14,153 bases of DNA from Candidatus Helarchaeota archaeon. Its GTDB lineage: Archaea; Asgardarchaeota; Lokiarchaeia; Helarchaeales; JABXJV01. Location of the stretch: contig JABXJV010000363.1 in the NCBI GenBank assembly GCA_013375355.1, positions 1 to 14,153 of the forward strand, in the 5' to 3' direction. Below the pieces are notes generated by a model. It worked only from the letters and a program-made list of their open reading frames with translations, was not told the origin of the DNA and ran no database searches. Position numbers and translations under genes: made by a program. Below are positions 9,397 through 14,153 of this stretch, in pieces. Position 1 is the stretch's first letter. Every line of letters begins with the position of its first letter.

Positions 9397-12300
9397 ATGG
9401 TCAGTTTAATAGAATGGATACCAGATTTTTCTTATTTTGCATATAAAGTGGCAAATCCTATTAATTTAGCGAGAAGTTTAAAATATTTAGAAGAAAAAAT
9501 CAAAAAAGGTGATATATTTCAATCTCTCGATGCCTTATTTTGGACAGTTGTTTTAATTCACCATCTAGATAAAAAAGAATTGATGGATAACAAATTAGTT
9601 AAAAAATATATTTCTGAATTAAAGCACGAAGACGGCGGTTATAAATTCTCGTCTAAATTAGAAAGTCCAGACACTTTATCTACTTTCTATTCCATAGCTA
9701 TTTTGAAAATATTAGGAATAGATGAGCTTATCGACGATAAGGATGCAAATTTTATTATAAATTCTCAAATTGAGGGAGGATTCATTCATTGTAATTCTAA
9801 GAGTTGCCATATTAATTGTAAAGGAAGAACTTCATTTGAATTTAGTTTATTTGCCCTTACTGCATTAATTTTATTAGGTAAACTTGAAAAAATAAATAAA
9901 AAACGATTAATTGATCACTTAAAAAGAGAGGCGAAGGATAATATAGAGTTAATATACCAAATTCTAGGATTGAAATTAATTAATTCACTTGACATTAATG
10001 ATTTTGAGAGAAAAATTCCAATTTTAACATCTTGGCAATTACCAAATAGCGGATTTGGAATTAATACCAAATTTCCATCGGCAGAAGATACGTATTGGGT
10101 TGGAATCTGTTTAGGGTTATTAAATAAACTGGATTTAATAGAGTTTAATGGAGTAATCGATTTTATAAAGGGTATGCAACAAGATAATGGGGGTTTTACA
10201 GGTCAATATACAAGCATAAGTTCGCAAAAACCAACTTTAATCAATACAACCCAATGTATTATAAGCTTATTTTATATTTGGAATAATATAATTGAGATAA
10301 TTGAAAATGAAATTCTTTATCATGCTCATAAATATTTTGATATTTATTTGATTCCAATCACTAAAAAATACTTGGTATCTATGGATTTAGTGGCAGAAAT
10401 TGCCGAATGGCTTTTATCAAATAAATGGATTGAAGGAGAAATAATAGATAGGGAAGTGATGTTTGAAAGTTATTTTAAAAATCAGAATCAAATCTCTCAA
10501 CAAATAATAAATGCAATTATGAAACATGTAAAATCTTTCCAAAAACAAAAAGAACTCGATTTGAAAGAATTAAGCAAAAATTTTGATTTTTCGAATCCTC
10601 TAGAGAGGGTAAAACTAGTTGTAAATGATTTACTCATCAATAAATTTTTAACAGGGGATGTAAAAACGTATAAGAAAAGATATATCCTTGAAAATTTTGC
10701 GCTACCTGGCAAATATATTCACATTACTAAACCCATTTCTTATGCGGAGATTATAGGCGAAAAAAAACGAATGGAAGTAGATAAACAAAAATTAATAGCT
10801 CTTCGTGCGGAATTAATTGAAACACCAAGACGTATTTTAAAAGAAATTCAAATAATAATAGATAAAGAAGAAATTTCTGAAGCAAATAATAAATTGAAAG
10901 ATGAAATTAAATCCACAAGAGAAAAAATATTAAAATTAGAAGAATTGATGAAAAAAATTAATTCTGAATATAAAATCATTGATTTTAAATTATCTAATTT
11001 TAAATTTCAAAAAAACTGGCCATCCATAAAAACCGCAATTATAAAAGAGCTCAGTGCAACAAAATTAAAAATAGAGGAAATAATCAAGAAAAAAGGAGAA
11101 GATATTTCGAAACGCTCCCAAGAGAAGGAAGAACAAGAAGCTATTAGTCTTATACGTTCAAAAATAAGAGAAATTAAAAAGAAATTGAATTTGTATCAAG
11201 TCGAAATTAAGAATTTCTTTCCAAAAAATTTTACAGATCATGAAAAAACACTGAAATTAATTAATTCTATTTCTGATTATGTTATTAAATCTGATTCTGA
11301 CCTCAATTCTGATTTTTCAAATTTTTCCACTAAATTTCAGCTTGAGAATTTTAAAAAAGAGCTTGAACAAGTTAAATCGTCTTGGGAGAAGGAAAGAAAC
11401 GATAGAAAAGAGTTTATCAAATCCTACCATATTAAAATTGAAAAACGCATTGAATTAGAAAAATTAATAGATAAACTCACCTCAGAACTGGGAGACTTCT
11501 CTAATAATAAAAATGAACAAATCATAAAATTAACAAATGATGATAAATTAGATGAAGGTTCTAAATTATTAAATGATTCAATTAGTAACTTCAAAGAATT
11601 GAGTTTAAAACAAAGTAAAGCTGTTTCTGATTTTCTAGAGAAAATAAGTGAAGAAATTCCCGATTTTTCTAAATATTCTGACGATCTTGAATCAGTTTGG
11701 CAAAAAAAATTTAAAACTGAAGAAGAAAGATGGGAGAAATTTGTATCTGAATTAAATAAAAAACTTCATTCAAGCTTTGAAATTGAAAATAAAAATGAAT
11801 TGGATGAAAAATTAAAAAATAATATTGAAGAAATAAAAAACTCAATAGAAAATATGAAAGTTACTGTATTAGATTTAATGGAAGCTAAAAATGTAATTGA
11901 TGCTGGAAATAATACTAAAGAATTGACTAAAAATATAGATGAAAAAATAAAAACGTATAATCAGGAATGTAAGGATTTTGTAAAGGATAAAAGTCGTGAA
12001 TTTAAAAATTTTCGTGAAACTGTAAATTCTATGATAGATAATTGGGAATCGGAATGTGAAAAATTAGCCCAATTTTTAGAAGAAACAAAAGTTGAATTGA
12101 TGAAGAAAGTAAATGAAAAAGGATCAGATTTAAGAAAAATTCAATTAGAAGAATTAATTAAAAAGGAAATTTCTGAAATTGAAGATAAAGTTGATAATTT
12201 TACACTAAATTTTAATCAAACCATTGATTTTGGAAAAAAATTAGACGATTTTGAAGAAAAATTTGAAACGGATTTATCTCAAATAAAGAATTCTTTAAAA

Positions 12301-13089
12301 GTATCAGATGATAAAATAAAAGATTTTATTAAAACTGCATCAAAGATTTATGAAATATTTGAAGAAATTGCCTTAAAAGAAATAAAATATTGGGCTGAAT
12401 CAAAATCTTCAATTGAAAATCAGATAGATACAATCTCTGAAAAAGTCAATATTGAAATACTCATTGTAAGGATTCAAACAATAGTCCGTGCATTCAAAGG
12501 TAATAAAGTAGACTTAAGTTATTTATCCAAGGCGGTAAAAGTCAAATTGGAATCTCTCAAATTAAAAATAATTGAATTGATTTCGGAAAAAAGACTTGTT
12601 GGTGAGCTAGATACCTTTGATATGTTTATTTTAAAAGAAGAGGTTAGTCCTAGGAAATTATTGGTGGAAGAAGTTGATGAAATAAAAAAGGACATTATTA
12701 GAATACGTTATTTGATGGTGATACATAATGAAGTAGGAGCTTCTGTTTATAATAGACAATTAGGGGATTGGGACCTTGATCCAAACCTGATGAGTGGGTT
12801 TTTATCAGCAATCCAAACTTTAAGTTCAGAAATCAAAAAGAAAATGATCCCTATGAAGAGGATGGAGTATAAAGATTTTGAGATAATAATGGAACAAGGG
12901 GATTATGTCTTAGTAGCTTTATTCATAGATGGAAGAGAATCTGACTGGCTTCGCAGTAAACTAAAATCATACGTTATAGAATTTGAAAAAGAATACGGAG
13001 AACAACTAGAAGGATGGAGTGGCGAGCTTACTACATTCAGAAAATCTGGTTTTTTAGTAGATAAAGCATTTGAATTATTTAGAATATGA
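9397..13089 (+). CDS. Giant protein: prenyltransferase-like toroid, long coiled-coil repeats, C-terminal longin-like domain
   Basis: A 1230-residue composite of unknown function. About residues 40-300 look like a prenyltransferase/squalene-cyclase alpha-alpha toroid, with glycine-turn repeats EDGGYKF (78-84), QIEGGFI (124-130), LPNSGFGIN (215-223) and QQDNGGFTG (261-269). The zinc triad of protein prenyltransferases is not evident; a separate Cys/His cluster lies at 131-141. Residues 325-445 may hold small winged-helix-like units (inference). Residues 455-1065 are charged, helical and coiled-coil-like, with Trp-marked repeats of roughly 105-116 residues (W663, W768, W779, W883, W999). Residues 1100-1215 follow the beta-beta-alpha-beta-beta-beta-alpha order of longin domains of the MON1/FUZ type. 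No signal peptide or membrane segment is seen, so it is probably cytoplasmic. ATG 9397 follows a weak GAGAGA. A scaffold acting with small GTPases is speculation. Confidence 0.85.
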   Translation: MVSLIEWIPDFSYFAYKVANPINLARSLKYLEEKIKKGDIFQSLDALFWTVVLIHHLDKKELMDNKLVKKYISELKHEDGGYKFSSKLESPDTLSTFYSIAILKILGIDELIDDKDANFIINSQIEGGFIHCNSKSCHINCKGRTSFEFSLFALTALILLGKLEKINKKRLIDHLKREAKDNIELIYQILGLKLINSLDINDFERKIPILTSWQLPNSGFGINTKFPSAEDTYWVGICLGLLNKLDLIEFNGVIDFIKGMQQDNGGFTGQYTSISSQKPTLINTTQCIISLFYIWNNIIEIIENEILYHAHKYFDIYLIPITKKYLVSMDLVAEIAEWLLSNKWIEGEIIDREVMFESYFKNQNQISQQIINAIMKHVKSFQKQKELDLKELSKNFDFSNPLERVKLVVNDLLINKFLTGDVKTYKKRYILENFALPGKYIHITKPISYAEIIGEKKRMEVDKQKLIALRAELIETPRRILKEIQIIIDKEEISEANNKLKDEIKSTREKILKLEELMKKINSEYKIIDFKLSNFKFQKNWPSIKTAIIKELSATKLKIEEIIKKKGEDISKRSQEKEEQEAISLIRSKIREIKKKLNLYQVEIKNFFPKNFTDHEKTLKLINSISDYVIKSDSDLNSDFSNFSTKFQLENFKKELEQVKSSWEKERNDRKEFIKSYHIKIEKRIELEKLIDKLTSELGDFSNNKNEQIIKLTNDDKLDEGSKLLNDSISNFKELSLKQSKAVSDFLEKISEEIPDFSKYSDDLESVWQKKFKTEEERWEKFVSELNKKLHSSFEIENKNELDEKLKNNIEEIKNSIENMKVTVLDLMEAKNVIDAGNNTKELTKNIDEKIKTYNQECKDFVKDKSREFKNFRETVNSMIDNWESECEKLAQFLEETKVELMKKVNEKGSDLRKIQLEELIKKEISEIEDKVDNFTLNFNQTIDFGKKLDDFEEKFETDLSQIKNSLKVSDDKIKDFIKTASKIYEIFEEIALKEIKYWAESKSSIENQIDTISEKVNIEILIVRIQTIVRAFKGNKVDLSYLSKAVKVKLESLKLKIIELISEKRLVGELDTFDMFILKEEVSPRKLLVEEVDEIKKDIIRIRYLMVIHNEVGASVYNRQLGDWDLDPNLMSGFLSAIQTLSSEIKKKMIPMKRMEYKDFEIIMEQGDYVLVALFIDGRESDWLRSKLKSYVIEFEKEYGEQLEGWSGELTTFRKSGFLVDKAFELFRI

Positions 13090-13237: not shown

Positions 13238-14153
13238 ATGTCATTTAAAAAAAATTTGGATAATAATTATAAATTATCCCAAAAAAAAGGTCTTAGTGAA
13301 GTTGATATAAAAGACGCTATGGAGACTTTAAGGAAAGAAATAAAAGACAATGTTAAAATGTTAACTCAATTACAAGCAGATTTAAAAAAATATTTTCATC
13401 GAAACTTTAAAGACCATTTATCTACAAAAGATTATATTGATTCATATTCAGAATTTATTGAAAAATCTGATTCTATTCTAAGTTATAACATTTCAAAAAT
13501 ATCTGATATTATTCAGGAGGATAAACATAAAAAATTACTATTAAAATTTAAGACCTTTTGGGCGAAAAATCGGAAAAGATGTTTGGATATACTTCACTTT
13601 TACCAAAGTAGAATTAATAAACGAATTGAATTTGAAGAATTTATCAATGAAAGGATGTCTGAACTACAAAATTTTTCTGATGAATTAGATAACCAAATAA
13701 ATAACATGATAGATGAAGATAAATTGACTGGAGCGATTCAAATATTAAATGAATCCACTAAAAAGTATAGTGATATTGTTTTAAAACATAATATAGAATT
13801 TAAGAATTTTAAAGGTGAGATAAATAGGAATTTTTCTGACTCAATTAAATTCTTCGTTGATTTAAAATCAACTTGGATTAATAAAAATAATGAAGAGAAA
13901 AGAAGATGGAGAAATTTTGTTTTAGAATCAAGAAAAAAACTTTCAACTAGCAAAGAAATAATATGGAAAGACGAATTAGATCAAAAAATAGGAGCTTATA
14001 TTGATGATTTAGATAACCAAATTAATAATATGATAAATGAAGATAAATTGACTGGAGCGATTCAAATATTAAATGAATCCACTAAAAAGTATAGTGATAT
14101 TGTTTTAAAACATAATATAGAATTTAAGAATTTTAAAGGTGAGATAAATAGGA
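13238..14153 (+). CDS. Coiled-coil repeat protein, tandem paralog of the giant's helical region (3' end outside window)
   Basis: An open frame of 305 codons running off the right edge without a stop. The product is charged and helical throughout. It aligns without gaps, at a constant offset of 555, to residues 579-813 of the preceding 1230-residue protein. Matching landmarks are W108/W663, N56-F57-x-D59-H60/N611-F612-x-D614-H615, D161-K-L/D716-K-L, W213/W768 and W224/W779. Over a ~98-residue core about a third of positions are identical. It lacks the toroid. Residues 161-197 recur exactly at 269-305, a 108-residue period. ATG 13238 is the first Met, with no strong ribosome site; an in-frame TTG at 13154 would add a hydrophobic N-terminus. 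It is 148 bases after the giant's stop. Whether it ends in a longin-like domain cannot be seen. Confidence 0.85.
   Translation, partial: MSFKKNLDNNYKLSQKKGLSEVDIKDAMETLRKEIKDNVKMLTQLQADLKKYFHRNFKDHLSTKDYIDSYSEFIEKSDSILSYNISKISDIIQEDKHKKLLLKFKTFWAKNRKRCLDILHFYQSRINKRIEFEEFINERMSELQNFSDELDNQINNMIDEDKLTGAIQILNESTKKYSDIVLKHNIEFKNFKGEINRNFSDSIKFFVDLKSTWINKNNEEKRRWRNFVLESRKKLSTSKEIIWKDELDQKIGAYIDDLDNQINNMINEDKLTGAIQILNESTKKYSDIVLKHNIEFKNFKGEINR
13713..13829 (+). repeat. Direct repeat, copy 1 (perfect match to copy 2, period 324 bp)
   Basis: These 117 bases are identical to 14037-14153. The offset is 324 bases, or 108 codons, so both copies are read in the same frame of the coiled-coil gene. Upstream of 13713 the copies still align but show point differences. 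This copy encodes residues 160-197 of the truncated gene. Confidence 0.95.
14037..14153 (+). repeat. Direct repeat, copy 2, cut by the window edge
   Basis: Identical to 13713-13829 at every base up to the last base of the window, so the match may continue beyond it. Identity at synonymous positions implies a recent duplication or gene conversion, or an assembly effect at a repeat. Confidence 0.95.

Follow-up and report, generated by a model that had tools for sequence, protein, structure and literature searches.

Gene, domain order and relatives

Of all known archaea, the Asgard group is the one most closely related to eukaryotes. We analysed a 14,153-nucleotide stretch of DNA from a Candidatus Helarchaeota archaeon (contig JABXJV010000363.1, here called the window) and focused on one gene encoding a 1230-residue protein. 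An earlier note, made from the letters of the window, had assigned a toroid to the N-terminus and a longin-like domain to the C-terminus of this protein, with helical repeats between them, and both ends were confirmed by our analysis. The protein belongs to a conserved Asgard family in which known domains are joined in a new order. We refer to longin-ended members as type A and to a sister form with a hydrophobic C-terminus as type B. The following features were assigned in the window:

9397..13089, + strand: type A gene, 1230-residue toroid-rod-longin protein; intact open reading frame (ORF); relative P0002 matches it over the full length and lies in a locus of conserved gene order
9448..10332, + strand: alpha-alpha toroid, residues 18-312, lacking the Asp and Cys that bind zinc in protein prenyltransferases
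9787..9819, + strand: H131-C132-x4-C137-x3-C141 motif in a toroid loop, putative metal site
10333..10737, + strand: pair of winged-helix-like domains following the toroid, residues 313-447, from AlphaFold2 (AF2) secondary structure
10738..12447, + strand: rod of about five tandem helical repeats of about 115 residues (W541, W663, W768, W883, W999)
12448..12639, + strand: PCI-like winged helix, residues about 1018-1081
12682..13086, + strand: longin domain, residues 1096-1230, from AF2 element order and hhalign
13238..14153, + strand: tandem partner gene, a paralogue (relative P0016) of which only the start is present before it runs off the window end

The closest relative, P0002, is 84% identical over its full length and comes from a Helarchaeota metagenome-assembled genome. 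Its locus and the window share the gene order purB, FAD gene, purE, type A gene and paralogue. Protein searches with residues 1-470 returned 13 more proteins of 1080-1368 residues, and those with residues 990-1230 another ten (P0016 and P0019-P0027). Every retrieved type A relative except the paralogue P0016 carried a precomputed PF00432 domain. The type A set used below comprises 22 proteins including that of the window; P0016 and P0004, which ends before the longin, were excluded, and P0025 (1191 residues) is included with its label partial. Many of the proteins are nameless, and all relatives with an organism in their source name are Asgard, as the earlier note had supposed for this protein. 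Two peptide patterns run against genome_contigs identified at least seven loci (one from Helarchaeota, six from Lokiarchaeota). Using six short patterns only, none of seven pattern-matching stretches in viral_contigs was found to encode a relative.

Toroid head

Structure prediction and fold search yielded a toroid fold at the N-terminus, and the same region scored above the curated cut-off of PF00432. The top fold and sequence matches were the beta subunits of Rab geranylgeranyltransferase (RabGGTase) and geranylgeranyltransferase 3 (GGTase3), the window protein reaching 1.7e-4 in a PDB sequence search. RabGGTase beta was also the top PDB match of three other Asgard toroids used as controls (L122, L152 and L098 at 6.7e-21, 1.8e-17 and 3e-9, respectively), of which L152 is the longin-toroid fusion of genome G013 described below. 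Since all three controls match RabGGTase beta with better E-values and the window toroid is no nearer to it than they are, this likeness indicates a toroid in general and not a Rab-specific enzyme.

Through sequence alignments to RabGGTase beta, we located the columns of two of the three catalytic zinc ligands (Asp, Cys and His) of prenyltransferase beta subunits, namely Asp and Cys. The Asp column holds Ser in 18, Thr in three and Val in one of the 22 type A proteins and Glu in two, Asp in one and Gln in one of four type B proteins, while Cys is absent from its column in all 26 rows. The His ligand falls outside the sequence alignments; two of the 22 type A proteins and three of the four type B proteins have a His within residues 270-300, at differing positions. 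Only one of the 195 Asgard genomes had a match above cut-off to the alpha-subunit family PPTA (PF01239), this single match being counted together with in-frame neighbours. Sub-threshold matches were seen in 123 of the 195, and also in 4 of 14 control genomes. Relative to RabGGTase and GGTase3 beta, the Asgard toroid differs by lacking the Cys ligand in 26/26 and the Asp ligand in 25/26 rows and by having no clear alpha subunit. It is further fused to winged helices, a rod and either a longin or a transmembrane hairpin, and bears an HC-x4-C motif instead. A specific link to Rab geranylgeranylation, which the earlier note brought up, is not supported by these counts. With the Asp and Cys ligands missing and the three control toroids matching RabGGTase beta better, we rejected a specific role in Rab prenylation, and the head is probably inert as a protein prenyltransferase.

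The HC-x4-C motif was present in all 22 type A proteins, in 120 of 120 listed type B proteins (of 212) and, among 33 type B genes taken out of whole genomes, in 30, the exceptions being L092 and L096 with HC-x3-C and L087 with neither form. In the AF2 model it sits between a GG turn and the following helix. Type A proteins carry an extra Cys three residues on (21/22) or two residues on (1/22), and 72 of the 120 listed type B proteins read HC-x4-C-x2-C. The motif was absent from all 30 ORFs of other Asgard toroid loci, some of them truncated at locus ends. We regard it as a likely metal site. PF00432 itself matched at 1e-10 in 92 of 195 Asgard genomes. One type A variant (L083, genome G150) has a Cys-rich, zinc-ribbon-like insert within the toroid region.

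Winged helices and rod

Residues 313-447 were modelled with a predicted local distance difference test score (pLDDT) of 83-94 in ten-residue blocks and gave no Pfam match above cut-off in a scan of the window protein. In the rod that follows, the five tryptophans are unchanged in 14 of 14 alignment rows and the units align in register with one another in hhalign. The rod of three relatives is longer by one whole unit, and units measure 105-122 residues. In this tandem arrangement, unit length and conserved tryptophan the rod is reminiscent of spectrin-like three-helix repeats. The likeness is one of form; the Pfam scan of the window protein, which took in matches at E up to 1, contained no spectrin family. 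A three-helix-bundle PDB match of the rod profile was given no weight because the profile also matches other helical PDB entries. The winged helix beyond the rod resembles PCI domains: PF01399 exceeded 22 bits in 5/7 type A relatives and 2/3 type B proteins and scored 15.7 bits in the window protein and 17.9 in the paralogue P0016.

Longin end

Longins are a tail type employed by eukaryotes in membrane traffic. The C-terminal element order of two strands, a helix, three strands and two helices in the AF2 model, obtained at low confidence, is that of a longin. Foldseek ranked AP sigma chains (6e-4) and Sec22b highest; Mon1-Ccz1 and roadblock proteins (MglB, LAMTOR) came lower in the list. VIA scores were 9.8 for Sec22b, 9.7 for a TRAPP chain, 9.6 for synbindin, 9.1 for Fuzzy-Inturned and 8.9 for Mon1-Ccz1. 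We then compared two profiles, one of six ends (window protein, paralogue P0016, two type A relatives and two short membrane longins) and one of seven other Asgard longins, one of which is encoded beside a Ras-family GTPase (L144). They matched in hhalign with 98.4% probability (E 4.6e-15), with a score of 74.6 against a maximum of 17.0 over 50 shuffles of the columns of the second profile. The members of this second profile were not picked for resemblance to the C-terminus of the window protein, since five were found via the longin half of another protein, one is that protein and one is a bystander gene; one member, L161, had also been a weak match of the type A model. A broader profile of 25 longin-like domains matched the PDB weakly (AP-4 sigma at 0.034, ribosomal eL8 nearly equal). 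Homology to longins is thus supported by the Asgard comparison; the eukaryotic Pfam longin models stayed below cut-off.

In genome G001, the nearest longins to that of type A, after the paralogue, are proteins of 276-288 residues with hydrophobic N-terminal stretches (E 1e-64 and 5e-62), which are possible membrane-bound partners of type A. The same genome has 63 matches to the type A model, most of them confined to the longin region. It also encodes many longin-ended proteins (e.g. L135-L151 and L153) in open frames of about 200-2600 residues, several with secreted- or membrane-like starts. The two that were scanned, L135 and L153, have an N-terminal winged helix.

Sister form and distribution

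Type B, first seen in L005 and L007 and then in later matches, has the head, rod and winged helix of type A without the longin. A C-terminal hydrophobic segment is present in 118 of the 120 listed type B proteins and in none of the 22 type A proteins; the two without it are only 1194 and 1215 residues long. It is also present in 33/33 type B genes from whole genomes, a sample that may overlap the 120 listed proteins. The pre-terminal winged helix is homologous across the two types (hhalign 97.5%, 4.9e-12; score 74.6 versus at most 18.7 in 50 shuffles), and the longin has no match to the type B end (hhalign score 18.8).

With a type B model built from five proteins, matches at E <=1e-25 came from 52 of the 195 genomes of Asgard archaea, some matches being contig-end fragments. 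The type A model matched six at 1e-60, a line chosen to exclude most longin-only matches, below which more diverged type A genes could score. Five of the six have type A (cut at the N-terminus in G003), and G161 has type B only. The architecture described for one protein in the earlier note thus recurs in 5/195 genomes at this cut-off, all of which also contain type B sequence (in G186 only as fragments). We also built a tree from 47 regions covering toroid and winged helices (24 type A and 23 other rows), in which all type A rows fall on one side of a single branch with support 100/99. Under midpoint rooting, four type B genes (L084, L085, L086 and L089) join them (100/100), and because of this grouping the transmembrane form may be the older one. 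In the genome search, L035 and L044 (G001:C11 and G003:C338) showed one in-frame TAG inside the type B match.

Gene neighbourhoods

We clustered 38 regions, 35 from whole genomes plus L001-L003. The top neighbours, labelled on visual inspection of their N-terminal residues, were a helicase-like gene (22/38), an Fe-S-like gene (19/38) and an FAD-like gene (17/38). These look like ordinary synteny, and operon logic was set aside. Longins do occur near toroid genes. Upstream of the type B gene in a Lokiarchaeota locus (L005:142-5788), a toroid and ABC-ATPase fusion, a 573-residue protein and a longin and transmembrane protein are encoded consecutively; L007:270-5925 has ORFs resembling this row (Pfam was run on L005 only). 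The gene cluster of this longin and transmembrane protein lies several genes upstream in 9/33 type B regions. In G002, a longin-matching gene (5.9e-11) lies immediately upstream of type B, with a look-alike in G003. A second fusion of the two domains, in reversed order, is the 428-440-residue protein of G013 (L152:986-2272, - strand), with the longin first and the toroid second (PF00432 6.2e-30; Fuz_longin_1 0.022, below cut-off), which is complete in 1/195 Asgard genomes. Because longins are so common, we regard these links as suggestive only.

Within the window, the tandem partner is related to P0016 (708 residues, L001), which consists of rod, PCI-like winged helix and longin without a toroid. 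Inside this paralogue the last 152 bases (14002-14153) are a 97% copy of 13678-13829 at an offset of 324 bases. Either a repeat unit was duplicated recently, or the assembly is faulty where the contig stops. On the opposite strand at 391-2335, translations revealed three adjacent small membrane proteins with a common C-terminal Cys-rich, zinc-ribbon-like motif, CPACxAPLxKxPPCECEYCG.

Discussion

Types A and B differ from each other at their membrane end. For this reason we favour the reading, at a little below an even chance, that these proteins are cytoplasmic, rod-shaped, membrane-associated scaffolds or tethers. The earlier note had suggested a scaffold of a GTPase-linked or membrane-remodelling system, and with a sister family ending in a transmembrane hairpin the membrane link is now stronger than could be known from the window. 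The toroid head, probably inactive as a protein prenyltransferase, would bind either a protein partner or a lipid-like ligand, and its HC-x4-C motif would be a binding site or an edge stabilised by metal. The rod of three-helix-bundle-like repeats would fix spacing. The C-terminal hairpin of type B, the commoner form, would provide permanent membrane attachment. Type A could attach reversibly via longin-longin pairing and/or a small GTPase, and may have arisen by the longin taking the hairpin's place. We consider longin pairing as likely as a GTPase for recruitment because the nearest longins in G001 sit in short proteins with hydrophobic starts. The GTPase link made in the earlier note would rest on longin roles elsewhere: according to PMC10933270 and PMC10936438, Asgard longins are expected to dimerise and serve GTPases. 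The mechanism as a whole is a well-motivated guess.

Several observations weigh against this reading. The AF2 confidence for the longin is low (pLDDT 36-74 in ten-residue blocks; predicted template modelling score 0.38 for the modelled piece) and longin Pfam models all fall below cut-off, Fuz_longin_1 for example in 4 of the 25 longin-like domains. The 38 neighbourhoods supply no firm partner. GTPase-like neighbours occur in just three of them, and only in G150 does one, a Ras-family gene in opposite orientation, adjoin the type A gene (L083), an adjacency explicable by chance as G150 holds 38 Ras-family matches. Longins are also so common that finding one beside or within a toroid protein may say little, the tree root is a midpoint for drawing only, and the winged helices could bind nucleic acid instead.

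The alternative to which we give most weight, while still regarding it as unlikely, is a scaffold like the proteasome lid, COP9 or a UFM1 ligase, in which PCI-like winged helices would join subunits, the toroid would be a structural ring and membrane contact would be secondary. A working protein prenyltransferase or prenyl-binding factor, whose toroid would modify or carry a GTPase recruited by the longin, would suit the top rank of RabGGTase and GGTase3 beta in fold and sequence, the Ras-family matches of the five type A genomes, which number 30-80 per genome (80 in G001), and the isoprenoid nature of archaeal lipids (PMC9385802). This is improbable given an Asp column without Asp in 22/22 type A proteins (Asp in 1/4 type B), a Cys column without Cys, residues 270-300 without His in 20/22 type A proteins (His in 3/4 type B), the near absence of PPTA and the equal preference of the other Asgard toroids for RabGGTase beta; prenyl binding without catalysis is possible.

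Slightly less probable again is an ESCRT- or adaptin-linked cargo adaptor akin to Asgard proteins that join Vps28-C, adaptin appendage, longin and HTH/PCI domains, as reported in PMC10936438. Proteins with winged helix and longin exist in G001, but none of the window protein's Pfam matches (E up to 1) was to a Vps28-C, steadiness-box or appendage family; neighbour genes are annotated in part, so ESCRT neighbours may exist. We would be surprised if the family formed a nucleic-acid or chromosome-organising rod fixed to the membrane. Three winged helices on a long helical rod would fit, as would the jgi source name of P0007, which contains 'SbcCD ATPase subunit'. That name is probably a helical-repeat artefact, however, the Pfam matches of the window protein include no ATPase family, and we know of no precedent for a longin in such a role.

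The favoured membrane rod shares its longin with other Asgard longin proteins, whether stand-alone, GTPase-linked or ESCRT-related with HTH/PCI domains, and longins are paired with winged-helix or PCI domains elsewhere too (PMC10933270 and PMC10936438). What sets it apart is that type B has a transmembrane hairpin where type A has the longin. The available text of PMC10936438 ('prenyl', 'toroid') and PMC10933270 ('prenyl', 'coiled') makes no mention of a toroid head or repeat rod under these terms, and no published description of a toroid-rod-longin family was found in open-licence literature. Golgins (golgin-84, GRIP-domain golgins, GMAP-210) are similar in combining a long rod with alternative C-terminal transmembrane or GTPase-binding modules as anchors (PMC5267433). 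We found no sequence relation between golgins and the Asgard protein, whose rod consists of tandem repeats and not of plain coiled coil, and which has a toroid head and a longin instead of GRIP. By analogy, vesicle capture by the free end would be a putative function, and alternative anchoring may operate through the transmembrane end in type B and the longin in type A. More specifically, these could be pre-eukaryotic archaeal rods built on the golgin principle, with an inert toroid as capture end and either a transmembrane hairpin or a longin docking on a small GTPase or transmembrane longin, forming a switchable tether. We consider this full version speculative and rather unlikely.

GTPases and longins are abundant in Asgard genomes, and the family described here supplies a concrete, conserved scaffold to which they might attach. 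The same rod equipped with either a fixed anchor or a longin represents a natural experiment, and because the two forms can be compared, the role of a longin in an Asgard cell becomes directly testable. A toroid without prenyltransferase ligands that nevertheless keeps the HC-x4-C motif points to an unexplained use of the toroid fold. If the golgin-principle reading is true, a switchable membrane tether would have existed in Asgard cells before there were Golgi membranes.

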